Positions 10,848 to 23,488 of a DNA stretch of 64,000 nucleotides are shown piece after piece. Within the stretch, counting starts at the first letter, position 1. Every line of letters starts with the position of its first letter. The notes under the pieces are model-generated. The model searched no databases and had not been told where the DNA came from. It worked only from the letters and a program-made list of their open reading frames with translations. Made by a program: the position numbers and the translations under genes. This stretch comes from an uncultured Carboxylicivirga sp. (GTDB lineage Bacteria; Bacteroidota; Bacteroidia; Bacteroidales; Marinilabiliaceae): positions 1-64,000 of the forward strand of contig CANNEA010000011.1 in the NCBI GenBank assembly GCA_947503525.1, given 5' to 3'.

Positions 10848-11516
10848 TTATTGTAATCTGAAATTAACCGGAACAGTATAAGCTACTCTAACCGACTTTC
10901 CGCGTTGTTTACCGGGACTCCATTCAGGCATTTGAGCTACTACACGTGCGGCTTCTTTCGAAAGGTTAGCATCGGGGCTTCGCAATACTTGTATATCGGT
11001 TACCCCACCATCTTTACCAATTACAAAGGATACATAAACCCTTCCTTGAACTCCCAATTCGGCGCAGATAGCAGGATACTTAATGTTATTTGCAAAATAT
11101 TGCATTAAAGCCTTGTCTCCACCGGGAAATTCAGGCATGCGCTCAACTATTATGAATACTTCATCACTTACTTCTTCCGGTTCTGGTTCCGGAATTTCAT
11201 AAATTGTCTCATCTGTAGGTTCCGATATAACTTCAACATCAGTATCCACGGGAGTATCGTCTGTCACCACATTAATAATATCCTTCAACTTCATTTTTTC
11301 AATTGGCTCAGGTTTGGGTTCTTCAACTCTAATAATCTCCGGCAAATCAATTTCTTCTATATATGGATCACCATTCATTATTACTGGAACTGTTACATCT
11401 TGCGAACTCCATTCAAAAGCAGCAAATGCACTTCCTAAAGCAACTATTAATCCTATTTGAAAGAAAACTGAACGTTTACGCTCTAAGTCGGCGTGTTTAT
11501 GTTTTTTCGTTTGCAT
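10848..11516 (-). CDS. TonB-like energy transducer (paralog 1)
   Basis: The 222-residue protein has a cytosolic basic start (KKHKHADLERKRSVFFQ), one transmembrane helix (about 18-37, ending AFEWSS), an acidic Pro/Glu-rich periplasmic linker, and a C-terminal TonB domain (about 130-222) with the family hallmarks EFPGGDKALMQYFANNIKYP, VQGRVYVSFVIGKDG and SPGKQRGKSVRVAYTVPVNFRL. It transmits proton-motive energy to TonB-dependent receptors. A close paralog lies upstream and both share sequence in their 5' regions, so this is a tandem duplication. No ExbB/ExbD genes are nearby. Confidence 0.9.
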   Translation of the reverse strand: MQTKKHKHADLERKRSVFFQIGLIVALGSAFAAFEWSSQDVTVPVIMNGDPYIEEIDLPEIIRVEEPKPEPIEKMKLKDIINVVTDDTPVDTDVEVISEPTDETIYEIPEPEPEEVSDEVFIIVERMPEFPGGDKALMQYFANNIKYPAICAELGVQGRVYVSFVIGKDGGVTDIQVLRSPDANLSKEAARVVAQMPEWSPGKQRGKSVRVAYTVPVNFRLQ

Positions 11517-12064: not shown

Positions 12065-12754
12065 TTACTGAAGTATAAATCGAACAGGAACACTGTACGA
12101 TACCTTCACGGGCCTGCCTCTTTGTTTACCCGGTTTCCAGCTTGGCATAGAACTTACCACCCGAATGGCCTCGCGTTCGAGGTTTGCATCAGGTGCACGC
12201 AAAGCTTTTACATTAGTTACTTTACCCGTTTTGTCAATTACAAAAGAAACTGATACCATTCCTTGCACTCCGTTCTCTTGACATATCACCGGGTAGTTAA
12301 CATTGTTGGCAATGTATTTCAACAATGCCTTATCACCTCCAGGAAACTCAGGTTTATCCTCCAATACAAAAAATGGTAGTGGATCGCCAGAATCTTCTTC
12401 CTCCTCTAAATCGCTAAAGTCGACTTCCAAATCTTCCGTACTTTCTGAGTCCTCTATTTCTAGTTCTTCATCAAGTTCGACATCATCATCAACAATTTGC
12501 AGTATATCCGAAACTACGGGTGGAGGTGGTGGCGGAGGTGGCTTTATCTCCTCCTGAGTAGTTATTGGGGGCGCTTCTTCTTCAAACACCTCCTCATCAA
12601 CCCAGAACTGTTCACCAACATCCACTTTGGTAGTTGACCATTCAAAGGCAACAAAAATTACCCCCAAGGTGACAATTAAACCAATTTGGAAAAACATGGC
12701 CCTCTTTCGTTCAAGGTCAGCCTTTTTGCTTTTTTTAATTTCCATAGGCAACAA
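12065..12754 (-). CDS. TonB-like energy transducer (paralog 2)
   Basis: The 229-residue paralog of the protein at 10848 begins KKSKKADLERKRAMFFQIGL with one transmembrane helix ending FEWSTT. Its linker is unusual: eight consecutive prolines (about residues 72-79) followed by about 55 very acidic residues (Glu/Asp/Ser) instead of the usual Pro-Lys/Pro-Glu rod. The C-terminal TonB domain (EFPGGDKALLKYIANNVNYP, VQGMVSVSFVIDKTGKV, PVKVSYSVPVRFIL) is intact. It should energise outer-membrane receptors. An alternative start three codons in (MEIKKSKK) is equally likely. The downstream hairpin at 11816-11887 may end its transcript. Confidence 0.9.
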   Translation of the reverse strand: MLPMEIKKSKKADLERKRAMFFQIGLIVTLGVIFVAFEWSTTKVDVGEQFWVDEEVFEEEAPPITTQEEIKPPPPPPPPVVSDILQIVDDDVELDEELEIEDSESTEDLEVDFSDLEEEEDSGDPLPFFVLEDKPEFPGGDKALLKYIANNVNYPVICQENGVQGMVSVSFVIDKTGKVTNVKALRAPDANLEREAIRVVSSMPSWKPGKQRGRPVKVSYSVPVRFILQ

Positions 12755-13024: not shown

Positions 13025-13032
13025 TACTTTTG
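13025..13032 (+). promoter_or_regulatory. -7 element (TACTTTTG) of the sigma54-activator gene
   Basis: TACTTTTG matches TANNTTTG. A transcript would begin near 13038, which is after the ATG at 13030 and before the ATG at 13057, supporting the later start. No clear -33 box is present. Confidence 0.45.
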
Positions 13033-13056: not shown

Positions 13057-14841
13057 ATGTCAAAAAAGAAAGAAGAACACTTAGCTGAAATTGATGTGCA
13101 ATTATTGCATGAGGTATTGTCAGATTTTGCGAAAAGCATGGCAAATACCATCTTTCATATTGCTGTGGTTAATTCTGAATTTAATATCATACTGTCTTAT
13201 TCTAATCGTAATAAGTCGGATATAAACATTACGGTTGGGCGAAATTGGAACGCTCTTGATCAAAGAATAAATTGGAACAATTCATCAAAAACTGAAGGCA
13301 TTGTCAGTACTGAAAATTCTGCTTTTAATATTATTATGTGCCATAAACAAAACCAGAAACTCCCGTTTAGCATTTTTTTGTTCTCATCAATAGACATTGA
13401 CTTTCCATGGTTAAAAATTGCCGGAGCCTCAATTGAAAATTCCATTCTGAATAAATTTCATGATGCATCTATGCAGCAGAAGATTGAAGATACCCACCAA
13501 TATACTTTTGCAATGATGAATGCATTAAAAGTAGGTGTATTATCAGTAACTGTTCAGGGAGAGATTCTTTACGCCAACGATCATGCCTGCAAATGGATAA
13601 ATATCCGAAGACGTGATCTTTTGAAGATCCCCATAAAAAAGATCATATCTAATTGGAAAAACATTTATCAAGTCATCAGTTCGGGTGAAAAATACCTGAA
13701 TGAAGAAATAAATGTGAATACATCCGATGGCAATGTCAAATACAATGTCAATGTAAATCCAATACTTAATCAGGCCCAATCGAAACTTATAGGTTTGGTG
13801 GTGACCATGCGAAAACTGGAGAATGTATATAACCTGGTAAATAAATATACAGGTATGCAAGCCCGATTTACTTTTGATGATATTATTGCCAAGAGTAAAG
13901 TGATGCGAAAACTGATTGATTACGCCAAAAATATAGCTGACAGCCCATCAACAGTTCTTATTGAAGCTGATAGTGGAACTGGTAAAGAAGTATTTGCACA
14001 AAGCATGCATAATGCAAGTAGCCGAAAAGACAATGGATTTGTGGCAATAAATTGTGCCGCGATAAGCGAACACCTTATTGAGAGCGAATTATTTGGATAC
14101 GATGATGGTGCTTTTACAGGCGCTAAAAAAGGTGGCCACCCCGGCAAATTCGAATTAGCCAATGGAGGAACACTATTTCTGGATGAGATTGGCGACATGA
14201 AACCTGAACTGCAGGTGAAATTATTAAGAGCTATTCAGGAAAATGCAATATCAAGGGTTGGAGGAAATAAAAATATCCCTGTAGATGTTCGTTTAATTGC
14301 TGCAACCAACAAAAACTTAAAAGCCGAAGTTGAAGCTGGGCGATTTCGATTAGACCTTTATTACAGGTTAAGTGTAATTCCATTAAAAATCCCTTCCTTA
14401 TGTGAACGCATGGAAGATTTACCTTCGTTGATCAGATTCTTCCTGAATAAGAAAGCTATTCGCCTGCAAAAAAATGTACCTCAACTTAAATACTCAACCT
14501 TACAACAGTTTCTTAGCTACGAATGGCCGGGTAATATTAGGGAGTTGGAAAATGCGATAGAGCAGTACGTCAACTTTGATGGTGATATTGCTTTTGAAAA
14601 TCTCAAAAAAGAAGATAATCCAAAACATGATAGCTCCTCCAATAATGTAAAAATAAAAGACCGGGAACTTCAACTTGGAACGGTTAAGGAAATGGAAAGG
14701 CAATTGATTATGGACACCTTAAGTCATTTCAATTACAACATGACACTTGCAGCAAAATCCCTCGGTCTTAGCAGAAATACACTTTATTTAAAAACAAAGT
14801 CTTTCGGGCTGATTCCTTCCAGTAATCGTCCTATTTTATGA
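13057..14841 (+). CDS. Sigma54-dependent transcriptional activator with PAS domain and Fis-type HTH
   Basis: From the preferred start MSKKKEEHLAEID (13057; GGGAAA upstream) the protein has about 594 residues. An N-terminal sensory region of about 140 residues with no recognised domain is followed by a PAS domain (about 145-255, ALKVGVLSVTVQGEILYAND), an AAA+ domain (about 270-500) with Walker A DSGTGKE, the sigma54-contact loop GAFTGA and Walker B GTLFLDEIGDM, and a Fis-type helix-turn-helix at the C-terminus (LAAKSLGLSRNTLYLKTKSF). There is no receiver domain, so it is controlled by ligand or partner binding and not by phosphorylation of a receiver. It directly precedes the five-gene hydrogenase operon in the same direction and most likely drives it through RpoN. 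Confidence 0.9.
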   Translation: MSKKKEEHLAEIDVQLLHEVLSDFAKSMANTIFHIAVVNSEFNIILSYSNRNKSDINITVGRNWNALDQRINWNNSSKTEGIVSTENSAFNIIMCHKQNQKLPFSIFLFSSIDIDFPWLKIAGASIENSILNKFHDASMQQKIEDTHQYTFAMMNALKVGVLSVTVQGEILYANDHACKWINIRRRDLLKIPIKKIISNWKNIYQVISSGEKYLNEEINVNTSDGNVKYNVNVNPILNQAQSKLIGLVVTMRKLENVYNLVNKYTGMQARFTFDDIIAKSKVMRKLIDYAKNIADSPSTVLIEADSGTGKEVFAQSMHNASSRKDNGFVAINCAAISEHLIESELFGYDDGAFTGAKKGGHPGKFELANGGTLFLDEIGDMKPELQVKLLRAIQENAISRVGGNKNIPVDVRLIAATNKNLKAEVEAGRFRLDLYYRLSVIPLKIPSLCERMEDLPSLIRFFLNKKAIRLQKNVPQLKYSTLQQFLSYEWPGNIRELENAIEQYVNFDGDIAFENLKKEDNPKHDSSSNNVKIKDRELQLGTVKEMERQLIMDTLSHFNYNMTLAAKSLGLSRNTLYLKTKSFGLIPSSNRPIL

Positions 14842-14889
14842 CACCGTCTTTTTTTAGGACATCCCAATGTAGTTAATTGTCCTATTTTA
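14827..14889. promoter_or_regulatory. Three TGTCCTA-type repeats, candidate activator sites upstream of hydrogenase operon
   Basis: CGTCCTATTTTA starts at 14827 (overlapping the end of the activator gene) and TGTCCTATTTTA at 14878, 51 bp apart or about five helical turns. An inverted copy TAGGACA lies between them at 14855-14861. They stand about 125-180 bp before the first hydrogenase-operon gene, the distance expected for enhancer sites of a sigma54 activator. The same heptamer forms the stem of the hairpin at 11816-11887. Confidence 0.45.
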
Positions 14890-14967
14890 GTACACTGAAA
14901 TTACCTCACTAAATATGCTTCGTTGCATCACTGGAGCATTGTACTAATTAACAACCTCTTAATATCA

Positions 14968-14984
14968 CTGGCATACAATTGGGA
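14968..14984 (+). promoter_or_regulatory. Possible -24/-12 (sigma54) promoter of hydrogenase operon
   Basis: CTGGCATACAATTGGGA keeps the TGGCA of the -24 element, but the -12 element is TGGG instead of TTGC. It lies about 25 bp before the first start codon. The location, after activator-site-like repeats and next to a GAFTGA protein, is better than the match itself. Confidence 0.3.
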
Positions 14985-15008
14985 ATGGTTTGATTATAAA
15001 GTTGGACT

Positions 15009-15260
15009 ATGCCAGATAGAACAGAACATGACATTTTAATTTGCTTAGGCAGCTCTTGTTATTCCAGGGGTAATGCCGAAAATCTTGAATTTGTCAAGAG
15101 ATACCTTAAAACCAATGGGGTAAACTGCAAAATAAACTTCCGAGGTCACCTATGTAATGAATTGTGCAACAAAGGGCCTGTAATTAATATTGATGACAAG
15201 GAATATCTGGAAGTAACTCAAAGCAACCTGCCTACTATACTCTCACATCATTTCGAATAA
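15009..15260 (+). CDS. Thioredoxin-like [2Fe-2S] ferredoxin (NuoE/HndA C-terminal type)
   Basis: This 83-residue protein is a single [2Fe-2S] domain of the thioredoxin-like fold. Ligands fit the pattern Cys12-x4-Cys17 and Cys49-x3-Cys53. Only the C-terminal half of NuoE/HndA is present, without the helical N-terminal domain. It should carry electrons between a redox partner and the hydrogenase-type proteins encoded after it. It is the first gene of the operon; the next gene begins 1 bp after its stop. A second protein of this type is encoded by the fourth gene. Confidence 0.85.
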   Translation: MPDRTEHDILICLGSSCYSRGNAENLEFVKRYLKTNGVNCKINFRGHLCNELCNKGPVINIDDKEYLEVTQSNLPTILSHHFE

Positions 15261-15261
15261 A

Positions 15262-16992
15262 ATGCAATTACAACCTATATATACAGAAACCAATGATTGC
15301 AAGGATTGCTATAAATGTATCCGGGAATGTCCGACAAAAGCAATAAAAGTAAGCGATAATAAAGCTTCTGTTATAGACTCCATGTGTATTTACTGCGGAA
15401 GGTGTGTTTCTGTATGTCCATCCGGCGCAAAAAAAGTAAGGGATGGTGTTTCGAGAGCCCGTTTATTAATCAAGAACAAGAAAGAAGTATATGTGTCATT
15501 GGCACCATCTTTTGTTGCAGAATATGGTCTCAATAGCAATGGTCTAATTGAAGCACTTCTACAACTGGGATTTAAAGGCATTTCAGAAACAGCTCTTGGT
15601 GCCCAAGAGGTATCTAAACAAGTCAAGCATTTTTTGGATGCGCGCCAGTCAGGCACTTATATTTCATCAGCATGTCCTGTGGTAGTTGAGCTCATTCGAA
15701 AGTATTATCCACAACATACTCTGGCTATAACGCCATTTATGTCACCTATGCTTACCCATGCCAAACAATTGCGTAAATGGTATGGCAACGAAATTGGAAT
15801 TGTTTTTATTGGCCCTTGTATCGGTAAGAAGTCAGAAGCTGACTCATCTCTTCAGTCGATAGATGTCGCATTAACCTTCAAAGAACTGAATGCATGGTTG
15901 GAAAAAGAAGGTATTAATATTGAAAAATCGGATCAAGCCAAAACTCAAAACTTCATTCCTAACAATGCCAGTAGTGGCACCATTTATCCGCTGGACGGGG
16001 GAATGGTTGAAACCATTTCAAATTCGTCAAAGGAAAAAAATAAACCATGCAGTCACCTTTGCTTTAGTGGACAAAAAAGTGTAAGAAATGTACTGGACAG
16101 CTTAGATCAATTGAAATCTGACAATGCTGTATTTTTAGAATTACTGGCTTGCAAAACTGGATGTTTAAATGGGCCTGGTATGTCTGATAAGGATCATTTT
16201 GCATGGAAACAATTAACACTTCGAAATATTTATCTCGAAAGAACTAGTGCAGAACCACTCCCAGCCAAGACAGATGATCACTTTAATATAGAACGTGATT
16301 TCTTCAATATAAAAACATTAAATCCTCAACCTTATGGTGAGGAACAAATTAAGGAAGCCCTCTTTAGCATAGGTAAAGCCAGCATTACAGACGAATTAAA
16401 TTGTAGTGGATGCGGATACGATACATGTCGCGATTTTGCAAATGCCTTGCTTTTAAAACACGCCGAACCGGATATGTGTGTTTCGCACATGCGTAAAGTT
16501 GCACATCATAAGGCGACTGTTCTACTGCAAAAGATACCATCGGGAGTTATTATTATCAACGATGAATACAAGGTTGTAGAAATGAATGCCAGCTTTGCCA
16601 GATTAATTGGCGGTGATTTGGAGTTTTGCTACGATGCCAATCCGGGCATGCGAAATGCTGATCTCAATAAATTGGGAACTTTTGCACATCTTTTTAAAAC
16701 GGCAATTATAACCGGCAAGGAATTTTTTGAAATGCCTATTCAGGAAAACGGACAACAGCTTCAACTTTCAATATTTAACATTCAAAAAAACAAGTTGGTG
16801 ACAGGCATTGTACAAAGTACCGCACAACCTGAATTTAAAAAAGAAATTATTGAGAAACGGACTCGTGAGGTAATCAGTAAAAATATGGAGACGGTACAGA
16901 AGATAGCCTTTCTACTTGGTGAGAATGCCTCCTATACCGATTCGTTGTTGAATTCAATATTAGAAACTCAAAACACTGAGAATGCAGAATAG
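15262..16992 (+). CDS. Sensory-type [FeFe] hydrogenase (HydS-like) with C-terminal Fe-S and PAS domains
   Basis: The 576-residue protein has two [4Fe-4S] ferredoxin clusters (Cys13/16/19/23 and Cys42/45/48/52), an H-cluster domain (about 75-330), a CxxCGYxxC Fe-S motif (SGCGYDTC, about 385-410) and a PAS domain (about 420-530). H-cluster ligands are visible as Cys138 (SSACP), Cys186 (GPCIGKK) and Cys297/Cys301 (ACKTGCLNGPG). The residue before Cys138 is Ala137 where catalytic enzymes have the proton-relay Cys (TSCCP). This change and the PAS tail are hallmarks of HydS-type (group C/D) putative sensors such as that of Thermoanaerobacter. It probably senses H2 or redox state and signals through the PAS domain. 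The next gene, a phosphatase, overlaps its end by 11 bp. HydEFG maturases are not in this window. Confidence 0.88.
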   Translation: MQLQPIYTETNDCKDCYKCIRECPTKAIKVSDNKASVIDSMCIYCGRCVSVCPSGAKKVRDGVSRARLLIKNKKEVYVSLAPSFVAEYGLNSNGLIEALLQLGFKGISETALGAQEVSKQVKHFLDARQSGTYISSACPVVVELIRKYYPQHTLAITPFMSPMLTHAKQLRKWYGNEIGIVFIGPCIGKKSEADSSLQSIDVALTFKELNAWLEKEGINIEKSDQAKTQNFIPNNASSGTIYPLDGGMVETISNSSKEKNKPCSHLCFSGQKSVRNVLDSLDQLKSDNAVFLELLACKTGCLNGPGMSDKDHFAWKQLTLRNIYLERTSAEPLPAKTDDHFNIERDFFNIKTLNPQPYGEEQIKEALFSIGKASITDELNCSGCGYDTCRDFANALLLKHAEPDMCVSHMRKVAHHKATVLLQKIPSGVIIINDEYKVVEMNASFARLIGGDLEFCYDANPGMRNADLNKLGTFAHLFKTAIITGKEFFEMPIQENGQQLQLSIFNIQKNKLVTGIVQSTAQPEFKKEIIEKRTREVISKNMETVQKIAFLLGENASYTDSLLNSILETQNTENAE

Positions 16993-18169
16993 TCTATTCT
17001 ATATTGAAGCTGAAACCTGCCAGGAAAATAAAGCCCGCCAAAATGTTTGTGGCGATGCCTGTGAATCGCGTAAATTAAAAGACGAGAATAGATTTATATC
17101 CGTACTATCTGATGGTTTGGGTTCAGGAGTAAAAGCGAACATTTTGTCTACAATGACAACAAGTATGGCGCTTCAATTTACTGCAAAAAACGATCCTCTT
17201 GAGAGAACCTCTGCCTTTATTATGAAAACGTTGCCGGTGGATTCGAAACGCCAGATTAGTTATTCAACTTTTAGCATTATTGACATCAATTGTTTCGGAG
17301 AAGCCACTATTGTTGAATATGATAATCCGGATATCCTTATCTATCGGGATGGGAATTTTCTTGAGCTGTCGAAAACCGGAAAAAGCATTAAACGTCCGGA
17401 TAGCAGAGATGCTATTGTCAATTATTCTAAAATAAAACTGGAAAAAGAGGATCGCTTGATAGTTGTCTCGGATGGCATAACACAATCAGGCATGGGCACG
17501 CATAACATGCCTTTTGGTTGGGGCGAATCCGGATTAAAAGAATTTATTCATCAGTGCATTAAAGCTCAACCTGAAATATCTGCATTGGGTTTAGCAAGGA
17601 AAATAATGGCTCGAACCAAAGCCAATGATTCGAATAATTTTAAAGATGATGCCACTTGCCAGGTCATATACTGCAGGCAACCGCGTAAATTAGTGTTAGC
17701 CTCAGGTCCTCCTTATTATAAAAACTACGATTGCATTTTAGCGGAACGAATCGACACTTTTAATGGTAAGAAAGTAGTGTGCGGTGGTACAACATCTAAA
17801 ATCATTTCAAGGGAATTAAAACGACAAATTGATATTAGTATCAATACTGCAATGCTCGACCTTCCACCCATTGCCGAAATGGATGGTATTGATTTGATCA
17901 CTGAAGGCATTCTTACACTTGGGAAGGTATCGTCATTACTTGAATCCATTAAATTTAATGTGATTAAAGGAGATGGACCGGCAGAACAAATGACCAAACT
18001 ATTACTTCAGAGTGATTCGATATTAATATTGGCAGGTACACAAATTAACAATGCTCATCAGGATCCAAATTTACCCGTTGAGCTTGAAATTCGGAGAAAT
18101 GTCATTAAGAAGATTGCCCATATACTTGAAGATAAATTCCTAAAAACAGTAGAAATAGAATACTTATAA
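16982..18169 (+). CDS. SpoIIE/PP2C-type serine phosphatase of hydrogenase operon
   Basis: The first 230 or so of 395 residues form a PP2C-like SpoIIE domain. Metal-binding motifs are SVLSDGLGSG (about residues 40-49), VVSDGITQSGMG (about 160-171) and DDATCQV (about 221-227). The last 165 residues (with VVCGGTTSKIISREL, PPIAEMDGIDLITEGI and DSILILAGTQINNAHQDP) form a separate domain that I cannot name. Such phosphatases dephosphorylate partner-switching proteins or other Ser/Thr-phosphorylated targets. Translational overlap with the sensory hydrogenase gene (11 bp) implies tight co-expression and probably physical partnership. PP2C genes accompany some HydS-type hydrogenase loci (recalled). 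No cognate kinase or STAS protein is nearby. Confidence 0.85.
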   Translation: MQNSLFYIEAETCQENKARQNVCGDACESRKLKDENRFISVLSDGLGSGVKANILSTMTTSMALQFTAKNDPLERTSAFIMKTLPVDSKRQISYSTFSIIDINCFGEATIVEYDNPDILIYRDGNFLELSKTGKSIKRPDSRDAIVNYSKIKLEKEDRLIVVSDGITQSGMGTHNMPFGWGESGLKEFIHQCIKAQPEISALGLARKIMARTKANDSNNFKDDATCQVIYCRQPRKLVLASGPPYYKNYDCILAERIDTFNGKKVVCGGTTSKIISRELKRQIDISINTAMLDLPPIAEMDGIDLITEGILTLGKVSSLLESIKFNVIKGDGPAEQMTKLLLQSDSILILAGTQINNAHQDPNLPVELEIRRNVIKKIAHILEDKFLKTVEIEYL

Positions 18170-18176
18170 CATTAGC

Positions 18177-18443
18177 ATGACGAAGCCTATCAACTTTAAA
18201 ATACAAATCTGTTGCGGTACCATGTGTTACATTATGGGTGGTGCATCTCTTCATTCACTAAAAGAGACTTTACCAGCAGAAATAAAAGATTCTGTATCTA
18301 TTGAAGGAATTCCCTGCATGGGACTTTGCAACCAACCGGACGCAGAACATCAACACCCTTGTGTTTTAATTAATGGAGAAATCATTAAAAATGCAAGCAA
18401 CCATAAAATTGTCAAACAGCTTTTAAACCACACCGAACTATGA
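18177..18443 (+). CDS. Second thioredoxin-like [2Fe-2S] ferredoxin of the operon
   Basis: The 88-residue protein has the pattern Cys12-x4-Cys17 (Cys13 is adjacent) and Cys47-x3-Cys51, as in the NuoE C-terminal domain. A His/Pro insertion EHQHPCVLIN follows the last ligand and adds Cys62. It starts 7 bp after the phosphatase gene and overlaps the next hydrogenase gene by 4 bp (ATGA), so translation is coupled. It is probably the dedicated electron partner of that hydrogenase. Confidence 0.85.
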   Translation: MTKPINFKIQICCGTMCYIMGGASLHSLKETLPAEIKDSVSIEGIPCMGLCNQPDAEHQHPCVLINGEIIKNASNHKIVKQLLNHTEL

Positions 18444-19900
18444 CCTATTACAATAATGCTGTTAGAACCAAACGCGAATTGTTAGTACGTCTAATCCAAT
18501 TATTAGATAGCGAACAGTTGTATGATAAAATTGACCGCATACCTCTTGAGATGCGACCACGCACAAACTCTCCAATTCGTTGTTGCGTTCATAAGGACAG
18601 AGCAGTTCTTAAGTATAAAATCATGGCCTCATTGGGCTTTAACATTGCCGATGAAGTTGATGAACTAACACCACTAAAGGACTATGCAAAAGAAGCCATC
18701 AATGGAATAGACTCCAATGGCAAATTCCTTACCGTAGTTGATGAGGCATGCAGTTCATGTGTACAAGTGAACTATACGGTCAGTAATCTTTGTCAAGGTT
18801 GCGAGGGGCGACCTTGCCAAGTGAATTGCCCAAAAGATGCTATTACGGTTATAAATGGCAAAGCCAACATCGATCATCATAAATGTGTGAATTGCGGTCT
18901 GTGTCAAAAAGCATGTCCTTTTCATGCCATTGCCTATTTACCTGTTCCATGTGAAGAATCATGTCCTGTTAAGGCCATAAAAAAGAATGAACAAGGCATT
19001 GAAGTTATCGACTTTGACAAATGTATTCATTGTGGTAAATGCATGACCTCATGTCCCTTTGGGGCAATAGCTGAGAAGTCGCAAATCCTTGATTTCTATG
19101 ACTCTTTAAGAAATAAAAATCGAAAAATGATAGCCATGGTGGCTCCTGCGGTTTTAAGCCAGTTTAAAACTAAGTCACAAAATATATTATCAGCCATTAA
19201 AGCCATAGGGTTTGATCATGTCATGGAAGTTGCAGAAGGTGCAGCTATCACTACCTCAAACGAAACTCAAGAATTACTTGAACATATCGAAGAAGGTAAA
19301 TCCTTTCTGACCAGTTCATGCTGCCCGTCATATGTCGATCTAGTTGAGAAACATGTGCCGGCACTTAAACCTCAAGTCAGCCATACAGCCTCTCCAATGC
19401 TCTTTACAGCTGCTAAAGCTAAAGAACAATACCCTGAGCATGATTTAGTATTCATAGGACCTTGTCTAGCGAAACGTAAGGAAGTCTATGATACTAAAAA
19501 GATTAAATATGTCATCACTACTGAGGAGCTAGGCTCTTTATGGGCAGCCTTACATATTGACCCAAGCAAATTAGACACTATTGATGGTATATCCGGAAAT
19601 ATAAATCCCGAAAGTCGTGGCTTTGCCGCTTCAGGTGGAGTAAGCCATTCTATTTTGGCTACTCTTGGTGCGGATAAAAACATATCGACCCAACTCATTG
19701 ATGGTATTGATAAAAAATCGATTAAATTATTGAAGGCATATTCAAAAAAAGCTCCTCGGGTAGACTTTATTGAAGTAATGGCTTGCCAGGGAGGATGTAT
19801 CAATGGACCGGGAAACATTGCACCTCCAAGCCTTGGTTTAAGCAACTTGAAAAAATCGATAGCCGAACTTTCACCCGAACCAGAACTTATCAACGCATAA
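18440..19900 (+). CDS. Monomeric [FeFe] hydrogenase, group B type
   Basis: The 486-residue protein starts with a helical region, then a Cys-rich segment (Cys104, Cys107, Cys118, Cys121, Cys126, Cys130), ferredoxin clusters (Cys149/152/155/159; Cys195/198/201/205, with Cys171/Cys175 nearby) and an H-cluster domain (about 228-470). Ligands are seen in TSSCCP (Cys294 and Cys295, so the proton-relay Cys is kept), GPCLAKR (Cys342) and EVMACQGGCINGPG (Cys449, Cys453). The TSSCCPSY and NGPG variants are typical of group B enzymes from anaerobic Bacteroidota and Firmicutes, few of which are characterised. It is probably catalytic, unlike the PAS-bearing protein in the same operon. It is the last gene before a strong terminator. 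Confidence 0.88.
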   Translation: MTYYNNAVRTKRELLVRLIQLLDSEQLYDKIDRIPLEMRPRTNSPIRCCVHKDRAVLKYKIMASLGFNIADEVDELTPLKDYAKEAINGIDSNGKFLTVVDEACSSCVQVNYTVSNLCQGCEGRPCQVNCPKDAITVINGKANIDHHKCVNCGLCQKACPFHAIAYLPVPCEESCPVKAIKKNEQGIEVIDFDKCIHCGKCMTSCPFGAIAEKSQILDFYDSLRNKNRKMIAMVAPAVLSQFKTKSQNILSAIKAIGFDHVMEVAEGAAITTSNETQELLEHIEEGKSFLTSSCCPSYVDLVEKHVPALKPQVSHTASPMLFTAAKAKEQYPEHDLVFIGPCLAKRKEVYDTKKIKYVITTEELGSLWAALHIDPSKLDTIDGISGNINPESRGFAASGGVSHSILATLGADKNISTQLIDGIDKKSIKLLKAYSKKAPRVDFIEVMACQGGCINGPGNIAPPSLGLSNLKKSIAELSPEPELINA

Positions 19901-19948: not shown

Positions 19949-19985
19949 CCCATTCGCTAAACGGTTGCGAATGGGTTTTATTTTT
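19949..19985 (+). terminator. Terminator of the hydrogenase operon
   Basis: A 9-bp perfect stem (CCCATTCGC 19949-19957, GCGAATGGG 19967-19975) is followed by TTTTATTTTTATT. It separates the hydrogenase operon from the convergent response-regulator gene and may serve both. Confidence 0.85.
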
Positions 19986-21372
19986 ATTGCATATCCTTTA
20001 TAATCTCAATTCCAAACTTCTTGATCTTTCGTTTCATCGCATCACGGCTGATCCCCAATAAAACCGCAGCTTTGGTTTGATTGAGATCCGACTCCTTTAA
20101 AGCTTGTTCGATCAAATGCTTTTCATGATCATCGATATTTAAACCTGTACTGGAAACGATACGCTCAGTTTTCGGGTTTGAATCCTCTTTAATTAGAAAA
20201 TCATCAGGCATTAAGGTTACATTATCCGAGAGAATCATGGCCCGTTCAACCATATTACGCAGCTCTCGCACATTCCCTGGAAAATGATAATGACGCAGTT
20301 TCTGAACTAATTCATCCGAAATACCCGGAATGCTTTTGCCTTTTTTCTTGGCGATACTCTTAACAAAATGATTTAACAGGGGTAAGATATCCTCTTTTCG
20401 CTCCCTTAATGGAGGGATGTTTATTTCAATAGTATTAATACGGTGAAACAGGTCAATTCTAAATTTCTGTTCTTCTATTAACTGCTCAATATTTTTATTG
20501 GTTGCCGATATAATTCTTACATCAACCGGAATTTCGATATTACTTCCAACTCGCTTAATTCGATTTTCCTCAATTGCTCGAAGTAATTTGGCCTGCAATG
20601 CAAATGGCATATCAGCGATCTCATCCAGAAATAGCGTCCCTTTGTTGGCCAGCTCAAAATAGCCTTTCTTTTCTTCCCTGGCATCGGTAAATGCTCCTTT
20701 TGTATGACCAAAAAATTCGCTCTCCAATAGTGTGGCTGGAATAGCTGAACTATTAACCGGTGCAAAAACTTGTTTTTTACGAGGGCTTCCAAAATGAATA
20801 ATTCTGGAGATAATCTCTTTTCCGGTTCCATTCTCACCGGTCACCAGCACATTTACATCACCATCTTCGGCAGCCTTAAGCGCCATTTTAAGCACTTTTT
20901 TAATTTGTGGACTATCGCCGACAAAATCTTTTTCTATCAGACTTTCCAATTCCTTGGAAACCAAAAAACCACGATCTTCGGCGGCTTCCAGTTTTGACTG
21001 CATAAACAGAAACTTTTCGGTGCGCTCAATGGCCAATTGGATATCCATTATTTGAAATGGCTTACGGATAAAATCAGACGCTCCTTTGCGCATGGCCTGA
21101 ATAACCATATCCATATCACCATAGCCACTAATCATTATAATTTCAAGATTAGGATATTCTACCTTTACCTTCTCAAGAATATCCAGGCCATTCATTCCCG
21201 GAAGCATAACATCCAGGATTAAAACACCGGGTCGTTCCTCTTCCAAAACGCTCAATCCTTCTTTTGGCGTGTTGGCTGTATATACTTTAAATGATCGCTT
21301 TTCTAAATGGTATTTTAGTTTCTCCGTAATCCGGGATTCATCATCCAAGATTAACACTTTTAGTTCATTCAT
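19984..21372 (-). CDS. NtrC-family response regulator (receiver, AAA+, Fis HTH)
   Basis: The 462-residue protein has a receiver domain (about 5-120) with acidic pocket Asp10/Asp11, phosphoacceptor Asp54 (LILDVMLPG) and conserved Ser/Lys positions, an AAA+ domain (about 145-380) with Walker A GENGTGKE and Walker B GTLFLDEIADM, and a Fis-type HTH (QTKAAVLLGISRDAMKRKIKKFG). The sigma54 loop reads GAFTDA where the consensus is GAFTGA. Its kinase is encoded 19 bp upstream in the same operon. It converges on the hydrogenase operon but no sequence evidence ties the two together. Confidence 0.9.
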   Translation of the reverse strand: MNELKVLILDDESRITEKLKYHLEKRSFKVYTANTPKEGLSVLEEERPGVLILDVMLPGMNGLDILEKVKVEYPNLEIIMISGYGDMDMVIQAMRKGASDFIRKPFQIMDIQLAIERTEKFLFMQSKLEAAEDRGFLVSKELESLIEKDFVGDSPQIKKVLKMALKAAEDGDVNVLVTGENGTGKEIISRIIHFGSPRKKQVFAPVNSSAIPATLLESEFFGHTKGAFTDAREEKKGYFELANKGTLFLDEIADMPFALQAKLLRAIEENRIKRVGSNIEIPVDVRIISATNKNIEQLIEEQKFRIDLFHRINTIEINIPPLRERKEDILPLLNHFVKSIAKKKGKSIPGISDELVQKLRHYHFPGNVRELRNMVERAMILSDNVTLMPDDFLIKEDSNPKTERIVSSTGLNIDDHEKHLIEQALKESDLNQTKAAVLLGISRDAMKRKIKKFGIEIIKDMQ

Positions 21373-21391
21373 ATGTTATGTCCACTTACTT

Positions 21392-23488
21392 TCAATTTGT
21401 TTTGCTGGCTGGCAACACTACAATCATTTTAGTCCCTTTACCAGACTCACTTTCCACTTCAATTCGTCCATCCATCTCTTTAACCAGGCTATAGGATATT
21501 GAAAGCCCAAGCCCGGTTCCTTTGCCCAAAAGCTTACTTGTTACAAATGGTAAAAATATATCTGTTTTTCGATTCGAAGCTATTCCAATTCCGTTATCGA
21601 TTATTTCAAGGTAAACATTTTGATCAGAGGCATGGGTAGCTATTTGCACTTCCATATTAAGATCAGGCTCTTTTTGTAATCTTTCTTCAACAGCATCACG
21701 CGCATTAGATAGTAGATTATGAATAACTTGTTCAAGTTTATGAGGATTTCCCAAGACCAAAGGAAGTTCTTCTATCAGTTCTAATTTAAGTTGAATATGA
21801 TGATTGGCATATTGATTACCGATCATTGAAACAGCATTCTTAACACATTCGCTCACATTAAAATCTTCTTCAACTTCATCCTTTTGTCCACTGCTGAAAA
21901 TACGAATATGATCAACAATCTGTCGTACACGAACTATGTCCTCAAATATCTCATTAATGGATTGGTTTAAGAAGGCTCTATTTACATCCTCTTCTGCCAA
22001 TTCATATTTTATACTCTCCGTTGACAGAGAAATGTTCTGAATGGGTTGATTAATTTCATGAGCAATTCCAGCCGCCAGTTCTCCTAAAGAAGTTAAACTC
22101 GATTGGTGCATTATAATCTGTTGCTGTTCTTCTTGTTTTTTTAACGCGCCATCAATTCTCTCTTCAAGGTTTTTGTTTTCCTCACGTTTTAAATAATATC
22201 GATAGTAAATGATAAAAACCAGAATTGAGATTATAAAAATGGTGAAGCCAAAAGACAAACGCCATCGTACCAAACTTTGCTTATCTAATTCAAGAAGGTA
22301 GTTCTTATTTTTAGTCTGAAGAATTTCATTCTCCCTTTGTTTTTCCTCCAACTCTAATGTGGTTAAAACGCCAACAAAATTACTCACATTCTCCTCCATC
22401 ATCATCGATTCAGATAACTTAGAGTACTGAATTCTGTAATCATAGGCTCTCTTAAAATCATTTTTTGATTCATATATCTGCGAAAGAGCCAAATAGTTAT
22501 CGCGCAAAAGATCGTTGGCATTTTCAATACTATTCGCCAGAGCTAAACTTTTTTTATGGCTTTTAACGGCATTTGAAAAATCGTTTTTCTTGGCATATAT
22601 CAAACCTATCTGAAGAAAGCTCATAGCAGCCTCCCAATGTTCATTATTCTCTATCTGATAAGCTAAAACCTGTTGATAGGTGTCAAACGAATGGTCTAAA
22701 TCACCTTTATAGAAATAGGTATTGGCTATATTACTCAACAAAATAGATCTGCTTCTCTGATCACCCATTCCCTCAAGAATCAAATCCATTTTATGATAAT
22801 AGACCAAGGCAGTATCATATTGTTCCTGGTGAAAATATATTTCACCAATTTGACCTAATAAAATAACCCTTTCCCCTTTGGCATCTTCCCCTTCATTCTC
22901 TTCAATTAGATCTAAAGCCTGATTATAATATGACAAAGCCATTGGATAATCTGCTATGTTTTTATAAACATCAGCCATCTTGTGATAAGTTTCAGAGATC
23001 TTATCCCAATCTTTTTCCTTAATGTATAAATTCAGTGAGCGTTTATAACTTTTTAAGGACTTCTCAGATTGCTTTAATCTGAAATAGGTAGACGACAACA
23101 TGGTCATACTTCTATCATCGCCGATATCCCTATAGGTGCTTAGCGACTTTCTGTAAGATTGCAACAGCTGTTCGTAATCATTTACAAAATAATAACCCAT
23201 CCCTAAATTATTGTAGGCTTCAGCTTCCGCACGCTTATCCTTGATCTGCATAGCTAACTGAAGAGCCTGCCGGGCATACTTAATGGCCATTTGTGGATCG
23301 GTATATAAATATGAACGCGATAATTGATTGTAGATATCAACTTGTTCCTTACTCGATGCATTTTTAAGTTTACCCAATAAATCGTTGACCTGCTCCGATT
23401 GCCCTATGGAATCAATGCTAATAAGAAGATATACCAGTAAGGATACAATATAAAATAACTTTTGGCTTTTGGATAATTTTAGCCTCAT
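21392..23488 (-). CDS. TPR-containing sensor histidine kinase
   Basis: The 698-residue protein has a signal peptide (about 1-28), some eight to nine tetratricopeptide repeats (about 35-390, for example AEAYNNLGMGYYFVNDYEQ and GQIGEIYFHQEQYDTA), a transmembrane helix (about 425-447, FGFTIFIISILVFIIYY), a coiled coil, a HisKA region with phosphoacceptor His in AGIAHEINQPIQ, and HATPase_c with N box (HNLLSNARDAV), G1 (IIDNGIGI) and G2 (GKGTGLGLSIS). The periplasmic TPR region probably senses a protein or peptide signal. It is co-transcribed with the NtrC-type regulator that follows. Confidence 0.9.
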   Translation of the reverse strand: MRLKLSKSQKLFYIVSLLVYLLISIDSIGQSEQVNDLLGKLKNASSKEQVDIYNQLSRSYLYTDPQMAIKYARQALQLAMQIKDKRAEAEAYNNLGMGYYFVNDYEQLLQSYRKSLSTYRDIGDDRSMTMLSSTYFRLKQSEKSLKSYKRSLNLYIKEKDWDKISETYHKMADVYKNIADYPMALSYYNQALDLIEENEGEDAKGERVILLGQIGEIYFHQEQYDTALVYYHKMDLILEGMGDQRSRSILLSNIANTYFYKGDLDHSFDTYQQVLAYQIENNEHWEAAMSFLQIGLIYAKKNDFSNAVKSHKKSLALANSIENANDLLRDNYLALSQIYESKNDFKRAYDYRIQYSKLSESMMMEENVSNFVGVLTTLELEEKQRENEILQTKNKNYLLELDKQSLVRWRLSFGFTIFIISILVFIIYYRYYLKREENKNLEERIDGALKKQEEQQQIIMHQSSLTSLGELAAGIAHEINQPIQNISLSTESIKYELAEEDVNRAFLNQSINEIFEDIVRVRQIVDHIRIFSSGQKDEVEEDFNVSECVKNAVSMIGNQYANHHIQLKLELIEELPLVLGNPHKLEQVIHNLLSNARDAVEERLQKEPDLNMEVQIATHASDQNVYLEIIDNGIGIASNRKTDIFLPFVTSKLLGKGTGLGLSISYSLVKEMDGRIEVESESGKGTKMIVVLPASKTN

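Follow-up and report, generated by a model that had tools for sequence, protein, structure and literature searches.

A HydS-type [FeFe] protein is encoded beside a phosphatase in several described systems, which we compare here with a locus of an uncultured Carboxylicivirga sp. of the Marinilabiliaceae (Bacteroidota), located at positions 13057-19900 of a 64,000-nucleotide stretch of DNA that we call the window. This locus comprises a gene for a predicted sigma-54 activator and a five-gene cassette encoding, in this order, a [2Fe-2S] protein, a HydS-like protein, a phosphatase, a second [2Fe-2S] protein and a group B [FeFe] hydrogenase (HydB). Our best explanation, which we consider probable, has two inputs: in the Marinilabiliaceae, a fermentation cassette that reports on H2 or redox state would be placed under a dedicated one-component sigma-54 activator.

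In hfsABCD of Thermoanaerobacterium, HfsB is of the HydS type, HfsC is a serine phosphatase homologue and HfsD is a ferredoxin-linked hydrogenase. By description, this operon resembles that of the window in combining a HydS-type protein (with PAS in hfsABCD), a phosphatase and a ferredoxin-type [FeFe] hydrogenase. However, HfsD is described as similar to HydA2 of Ruminococcus albus (PMC11837493), whereas the window encodes a TIGR04105 group B enzyme and two small [2Fe-2S] proteins, and the available parts of two sources mention no dedicated sigma-54 activator for hfsABCD (PMC11837493, PMC5707799). In R. albus, an eight-gene cluster includes a group A1 hydrogenase, AdhE and a sensory group C hydrogenase; as in the window, a sensory-type hydrogenase (with a PAS domain in R. 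albus) and a Ser/Thr phosphatase accompany a fermentative hydrogenase, being co-transcribed there and thought to respond to H2 (PMC6776011). In a comparison of cultures, a cluster that includes the sensory hydrogenase showed 111-fold down-regulation (PMC6776011). In contrast to this group A1 enzyme with AdhE, the window has a group B enzyme, no AdhE and a sigma-54 activator. Group C3 of HydDB (putative phosphatase-linked), again likened by description, has a group C domain adjoining a Ser/Thr phosphatase, as in the window, and no promoter or activator is given for it in the part of the source available (PMC5037454).

As for the control region, the window is reminiscent of AdhR from Clostridium beijerinckii, a one-component PAS/GAF activator with three upstream activating sequences (UAS) and a -24/-12 promoter of a redox-balancing gene (PMC7017808, PMC6615313). 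AdhR has both GAF and PAS and requires all three UAS (PMC7017808), and in 15 Clostridiales activator groups TGT and ACA repeats lie 10-12 bp apart (PMC6615313). In the window, however, the target is a hydrogenase cassette, and a GAF domain is not recognisable in the activator. HoxBC-HoxJ-HoxA is a regulatory [NiFe] hydrogenase system with a kinase and a receiver-bearing activator. There, an H2-sensing hydrogenase is coupled to an NtrC-family activator that controls a hydrogenase operon, an arrangement that the window may share in outline. The window differs in having a phosphatase, not a kinase, and an activator without a receiver. What looks new is control by a sigma-54 activator with a conserved three-site array; in the open-licence papers listed by our searches, we saw no HydS-phosphatase-group B operon described as having a sigma-54 activator.

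Predicted activator sites and promoter

The activator gene and the cassette are separated by 167 bp carrying regulatory DNA and, since this stretch divides them, the activator is probably its own transcription unit. Three predicted UAS of the TGT-N11-ACA type lie on the + strand: UAS1 (CGTCCTATTTTATGACA, 14827-14843), which overlaps the activator stop codon, UAS2 (CGTCTTTTTTTAGGACA, 14845-14861) at an offset of +18, and UAS3 (TGTCCTATTTTAGTACA, 14878-14894) at +51. A -24/-12-like element (TGGCATACAATTGGGA, 14969-14984, +) lies 142 bp from the start of UAS1. By sequence, the arrangement is thus both that of UAS plus a -24/-12 promoter, as for a sigma-54 activator, and that of three UAS of the TGT-N10-12-ACA type before a sigma-54 promoter, as for AdhR. 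A 17-mer as repetitive as that of the activator-cassette stretch was found in none of 300 resampled sequences.

The spacing of the triplet is conserved. Among the 24 activator neighbourhoods of the family (the window, L175 and L181-L202), 19 passed a motif filter, and 18 of these carry the triplet with at most 3 mismatches in 18 positions; the best of 2614 other spacings reaches 7 of those loci, none reaches 18, and the triplet occurs in 3 of 4000 background stretches. The five loci omitted by the filter (L194, L196, L198, L199, L200) all carry it, giving 23 of the 24 family genomes with the activator. The same sites are present in G127, a genome congeneric with that of the window. The triplet (+0/+18/+50 to +52) also follows the activator genes of L087, L088, L101 and L099 and occurs at L046, L047 and L044, while a search of 2,251,196 strand-bases of L102-L166 gave no match. 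In 28 of 31 non-redundant loci (L087, L088 and L101 being left out as repeat genomes of L196, L193 and L195), it is accompanied by a GGCA element 122-143 bp from the triplet start. A G at -12, which was not used in choosing these elements, is present in 28/28, and a T two bases before it in 26/28. The resulting pattern is GG-N10-G, which is the spacing of sigma-54 promoters. The window element has two mismatches to the consensus used and shares the common -12 G. No triplet was found at L039, L041, L042 or L184, nor at the activators of G082 and G093, which lie apart from the cassette; at L039, L041 and L042, -24/-12 matches are still present upstream of the next gene.

In the window's own genome, the exact half-site pair pattern occurs at four places, and the third site only at that of the window. 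One target operon in the genome is therefore likely, and no more than likely because an exact half-site search would miss weaker copies. We dropped the idea that one letter sequence is shared by the UAS of different genera, and kept the claim of shared spacing, because a motif built from other genera's UAS failed to pick out those of the window.

The activator and HydS also tend to occur together. In a sample of 119 genomes of the order, nine have a close activator (E <= 1e-125), ten have HydS (full-length, at least about 40% identity; split over contigs in G058) and seven have both, G050 (activator of 39% identity) and G054 and G101 (HydS of 32-33%) being left out. Among 71 genomes of the family, the activator is present in 24 (7 of 21 genera) and HydS of the window type, sought at E <= 1e-100, in 22 (6 genera), every one of which also has the activator. 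Since 14 genomes belong to one genus, these co-occurrences are not independent events. Downstream of the 24 family activators, HydS, the phosphatase and HydB follow in 21 cases and HydB alone in two (G029, G161); in the remaining genome, G132, the contig is too short and HydS lies on another contig. BLAST for [2Fe-2S] genes at L181-L183 found none.

That the activator drives the operon is well supported as a prediction, because the triplet array recurs in 23 of 24 loci and HydS of the window type is never found without the activator in the family (22/22). The original prediction had called the activator dedicated to the operon. It indeed looks so from the triplet with its -24/-12-like element, the restriction of HydS to family genomes with the activator, and the single occurrence of the triplet in the genome by the exact-half-site search. 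In the mechanism that we propose, the activator would bind the three TGT-N11-ACA sites and drive RNA polymerase-sigma54 at the -24/-12-like element, from which the five genes from the first [2Fe-2S] protein to the group B hydrogenase would be transcribed.

The activator and its relatives

The activator gene (13057-14841, +; a TTG at 13030 is a possible alternative start) encodes a diverged N-terminus followed by PAS, AAA and HTH_8 domains in Pfam, with a GAFTGA motif visible in the sequence and no Response_reg (receiver) domain found by Pfam scan. The best NCBIfam model, PrdR, scores 371.3 bits, below its cut-off of 795. One rpoN of the genome is above cut-off and a second match, at 24.8 bits, is below. 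The protein thus has the features of a one-component sigma-54 activator, namely an AAA+ domain bearing GAFTGA and an HTH but no receiver, in a genome that encodes rpoN, in line with the original prediction of a GAFTGA activator without a receiver. Pfam GAF was not found in the activators of the window, L087, L088, L101 or G029, and was found in those of L041, L099 and L176; the N-terminal GAF plus PAS of the AdhR type is therefore not seen in the window activator. In a tree, the activators of the window, Carboxylicivirga, two other Marinilabiliaceae and G029 form one clade (95/100). In two family genomes (G129, G134), the activator match has one internal stop, which is either decay or a sequencing error.

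Relatives of the activator, with the same triplet, precede other genes of fermentation. In G006, one precedes genes for an iron-containing alcohol dehydrogenase (Fe-ADH) and a Rex-like protein, and in G089, a second activator copy precedes an aldehyde:ferredoxin oxidoreductase (AOR) gene; HydS was found in neither stretch examined. At L179 (7503-11546, G089), this second PAS-type activator is divergent from the AOR gene. Because relatives precede Fe-ADH, Rex-like and AOR genes with the same triplet, the window activator fits, by analogy, a one-component activator of the AdhR type. Like its GAF-bearing relatives before alcohol dehydrogenase (ADH) and AOR genes, it may sense metabolic or redox state, here through PAS and the diverged N-terminus.

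A convergent NtrC-type response regulator and a TPR histidine kinase adjoin the operon in the window (19984-23488, -). Close homologues of this pair adjoin the operon in many family genomes and NtrC-family regulators also use sigma-54, so that the pair might control the operon via the UAS, the PAS activator having some other target. We regard this as very improbable, since the triplet stands behind or before the PAS activator type at L175 and L176, where no such pair turned up in the stretch examined, and it also precedes Fe-ADH, Rex-like or AOR genes.

Several observations weigh against control of the operon by a dedicated PAS activator. The convergent NtrC-type regulator and kinase adjoin the operon, and the -12 part of the window element is imperfect. 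Of the ten order genomes with HydS, three (G106, G113, G079) have the cassette but no close activator. G082 and G093 carry the activator on a different contig from the cassette, and G125 (L184) lacks the triplet by the criteria used. The repeat test was not significant on the relatives L041, L042, L046 and L047. The motif from other genera's UAS ranks the window sites 6 and 13 in the 64 kb, with scores of 11.4 and 9.6; in 60 random sequences of 64 kb, the top score averages 14.5. A further observation weighs against the second branch proposed below, not against the activator: G029 has another HydS elsewhere, of the bifurcating-locus type and 30% identical.

The cassette and its distribution

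All six genes of the locus are on the + strand, and the open reading frame coordinates confirm the predicted placements and order: within the cassette (15009-19900), gaps of 1 and 7 bp alternate with overlaps of 11 and 4 bp. Two genes encode thioredoxin-like [2Fe-2S] proteins (PF01257; 15009-15260 and 18177-18443). Between them, the HydS-like group C protein (15262-16992) contains Fe_hyd_lg_C, two stretches of Fer4 and FeS (PF04060, 35.9 bits, cut-off 23), while its C-terminal PAS is a weak match only (PAS_8, 17.2 bits, cut-off 21.8). The four H-cluster cysteines are kept: C138, C186, C297 and C301 align with the H-cluster motifs of a solved HydA1, and C138, C186 and C301 are invariant, and C297 nearly so, in a 14-row HydS alignment. 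In its SSACP motif, A137 stands before the L1 ligand, so that the proton-transfer position holds a non-Cys residue, a feature of HydS-type proteins. This feature is not universal, since two aligned relatives (the first copy of L042, and L045) have CCP instead. HydS therefore appears to combine the H-cluster ligands of a hydrogenase with an active site of sensory type. In G147 and G160, the HydS match has one internal stop (decay or sequencing error).

The phosphatase gene (16982-18169) lies directly 3' of HydS. Its product is SpoIIE by Pfam, and a model of the protein matches both SpoIIE and RsbU folds; it has a PP2C fold with the conserved Asp residues, and enzymes of the SpoIIE type act on Ser/Thr phosphate. 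Its C-terminal alpha/beta domain (17681-18169) is well conserved, with no Pfam family and no clear PDB match. The last gene (18440-19900) was predicted to encode a group B hydrogenase, and TIGR04105 bears this out (499.9 bits, cut-off 450). HydF is present in the genome. In Bacteroides, group B enzymes re-oxidise ferredoxin from PFOR (PMC12578642), and group A3, B and C1 [FeFe] hydrogenases are reported in Marinifilaceae (PMC9765461). Upstream of the locus, on the opposite strand, are two adjacent TonB_C proteins of similar layout (10848-11516 and 12065-12754, -).

HydS, phosphatase and group B hydrogenase had been taken as peculiar to Bacteroidota, which did not hold. We surveyed the best 80 of 546 HydS relatives from a HydS-alignment scan of genome contigs, with neighbours assigned by BLAST (HydB to the window protein only). 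The phosphatase directly follows HydS in 80/80, and a [2Fe-2S] gene precedes HydS in 77/80. Among the 67 loci with at least 3.3 kb downstream, HydB is present in 49 and the full order in 48; the five genes are thus not rarely together, which was the test set beforehand. The other 18 have no HydB in reach, 7 of them with bifurcating-hydrogenase genes nearby. By record titles, the full cassette occurs in nine or ten phyla (Bacteroidota, Spirochaetes, Gastranaerophilales, Riflebacteria, Lentisphaeria, Pontiella, Chitinispirillum, Auribacter, Sedimentisphaerales and Alphaproteobacteria), although single records may be misbinned because many are metagenome-assembled genomes. We therefore rejected the cassette as a Bacteroidota novelty: it is neither new nor special to this phylum. 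Where at least 3.5 kb of upstream DNA was available (68 loci), 11 loci have a Rex-like gene upstream on the same strand; where at least 6 kb was available (62 loci), 6 have AdhE there and 2 have Fe-ADH. The PAS activator is likewise upstream in 4 of the 80 named loci, 18 of which have less than 6 kb of upstream DNA. At L042 (10965-13856), a tandem second HydS-phosphatase pair adjoins the cassette, and genes for Nfn-like and Fe-ADH proteins lie upstream.

The genome has a second hydrogenase locus (L007 6843-16001 and L008 1-6594; C1 about 1190842-1206594) with NuoE/NuoF-like genes and HydA, a [2Fe-2S]-HydS-phosphatase set, and then DRTGG, HATPase_c_2, a further H-cluster-like protein, PHP and HydABC-like genes. 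We rejected the window cassette as a recent copy of this bifurcating-hydrogenase locus: the HydS there is 28% identical to that of the window and has no Lys at the third residue past the L2 Cys, and the set is followed by DRTGG and HATPase genes.

Place of HydS and the phosphatase

The original prediction placed all parts in one line: HydS would sense H2 and set the phosphatase, which would dephosphorylate the activator and so switch the operon. The adjacency of the genes and their one-way co-occurrence in the family (HydS with the activator in 22/22) speak for this order, and the existence of Clostridiales activators with Fe_hyd_lg_C and FeS in the regulatory region (PMC6615313) makes it plausible that a sigma-54 activator takes its input from an H-cluster sensor. 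However, G029 (L175 3817-7312) and G161 (L200) keep the activator, the triplet and the group B hydrogenase with neither HydS nor phosphatase beside them (the phosphatase was not sought genome-wide there), and HydS of the window type was not found in either genome at E <= 1e-100, although such proteins might act from elsewhere. Moreover, the activator has no receiver domain while SpoIIE-type enzymes act on Ser/Thr phosphate, this activator is upstream at only 4 of the 80 named loci, and in G006 and at the second G089 copy the activator and triplet precede Fe-ADH or AOR genes with no HydS in the stretch examined. The serial order has accordingly become unlikely. We find similarly doubtful an [FeFe] phosphatase counterpart of HoxBC-HoxJ-HoxA, in which HydS would read H2, the phosphatase would act on the sigma-54 activator or a partner, and the triplet would provide hydrogenase feedback.

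A post-translational brake is another tentative alternative, with a modest chance of being right: HydS as an electron gauge, the [2Fe-2S] proteins as wires and the phosphatase would act on the adjacent hydrogenase, not on transcription. The cassette stays with its hydrogenase in many phyla, deletion of hfsB raised hydrogenase activity, deletion of hfsA or hfsB raised ethanol yield, and the effect looked post-transcriptional in part (PMC5707799). Yet adhE transcripts likewise rose two- to threefold when hfsA or hfsB was deleted (PMC5707799), and HydB occurs without adjoining HydS in G029 and G161.

On balance, the sequences favour HydS and the phosphatase forming a second branch rather than the activator's input. 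In this two-input arrangement, the group B enzyme would make H2 and thereby re-oxidise ferredoxin, as others of its family do; HydS would monitor H2 or redox through its tail and set the neighbouring phosphatase, which may dephosphorylate a Ser/Thr phosphoprotein encoded elsewhere and thus tune fermentation.

These findings bear on the route by which HydS-type [FeFe] proteins pass on the H2 signal. Because the activator is of a known type and the promoter array is precise and conserved, transcriptional input and sensor output would be separable here by single-gene deletion and the control directly testable; G029 and G161 are related genomes already without HydS and phosphatase beside an activator-controlled hydrogenase. 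More generally, our analysis points to sigma-54 control of a fermentative group B hydrogenase in Bacteroidota, with genes for alcohol dehydrogenase and aldehyde oxidoreductase similarly controlled in related families.

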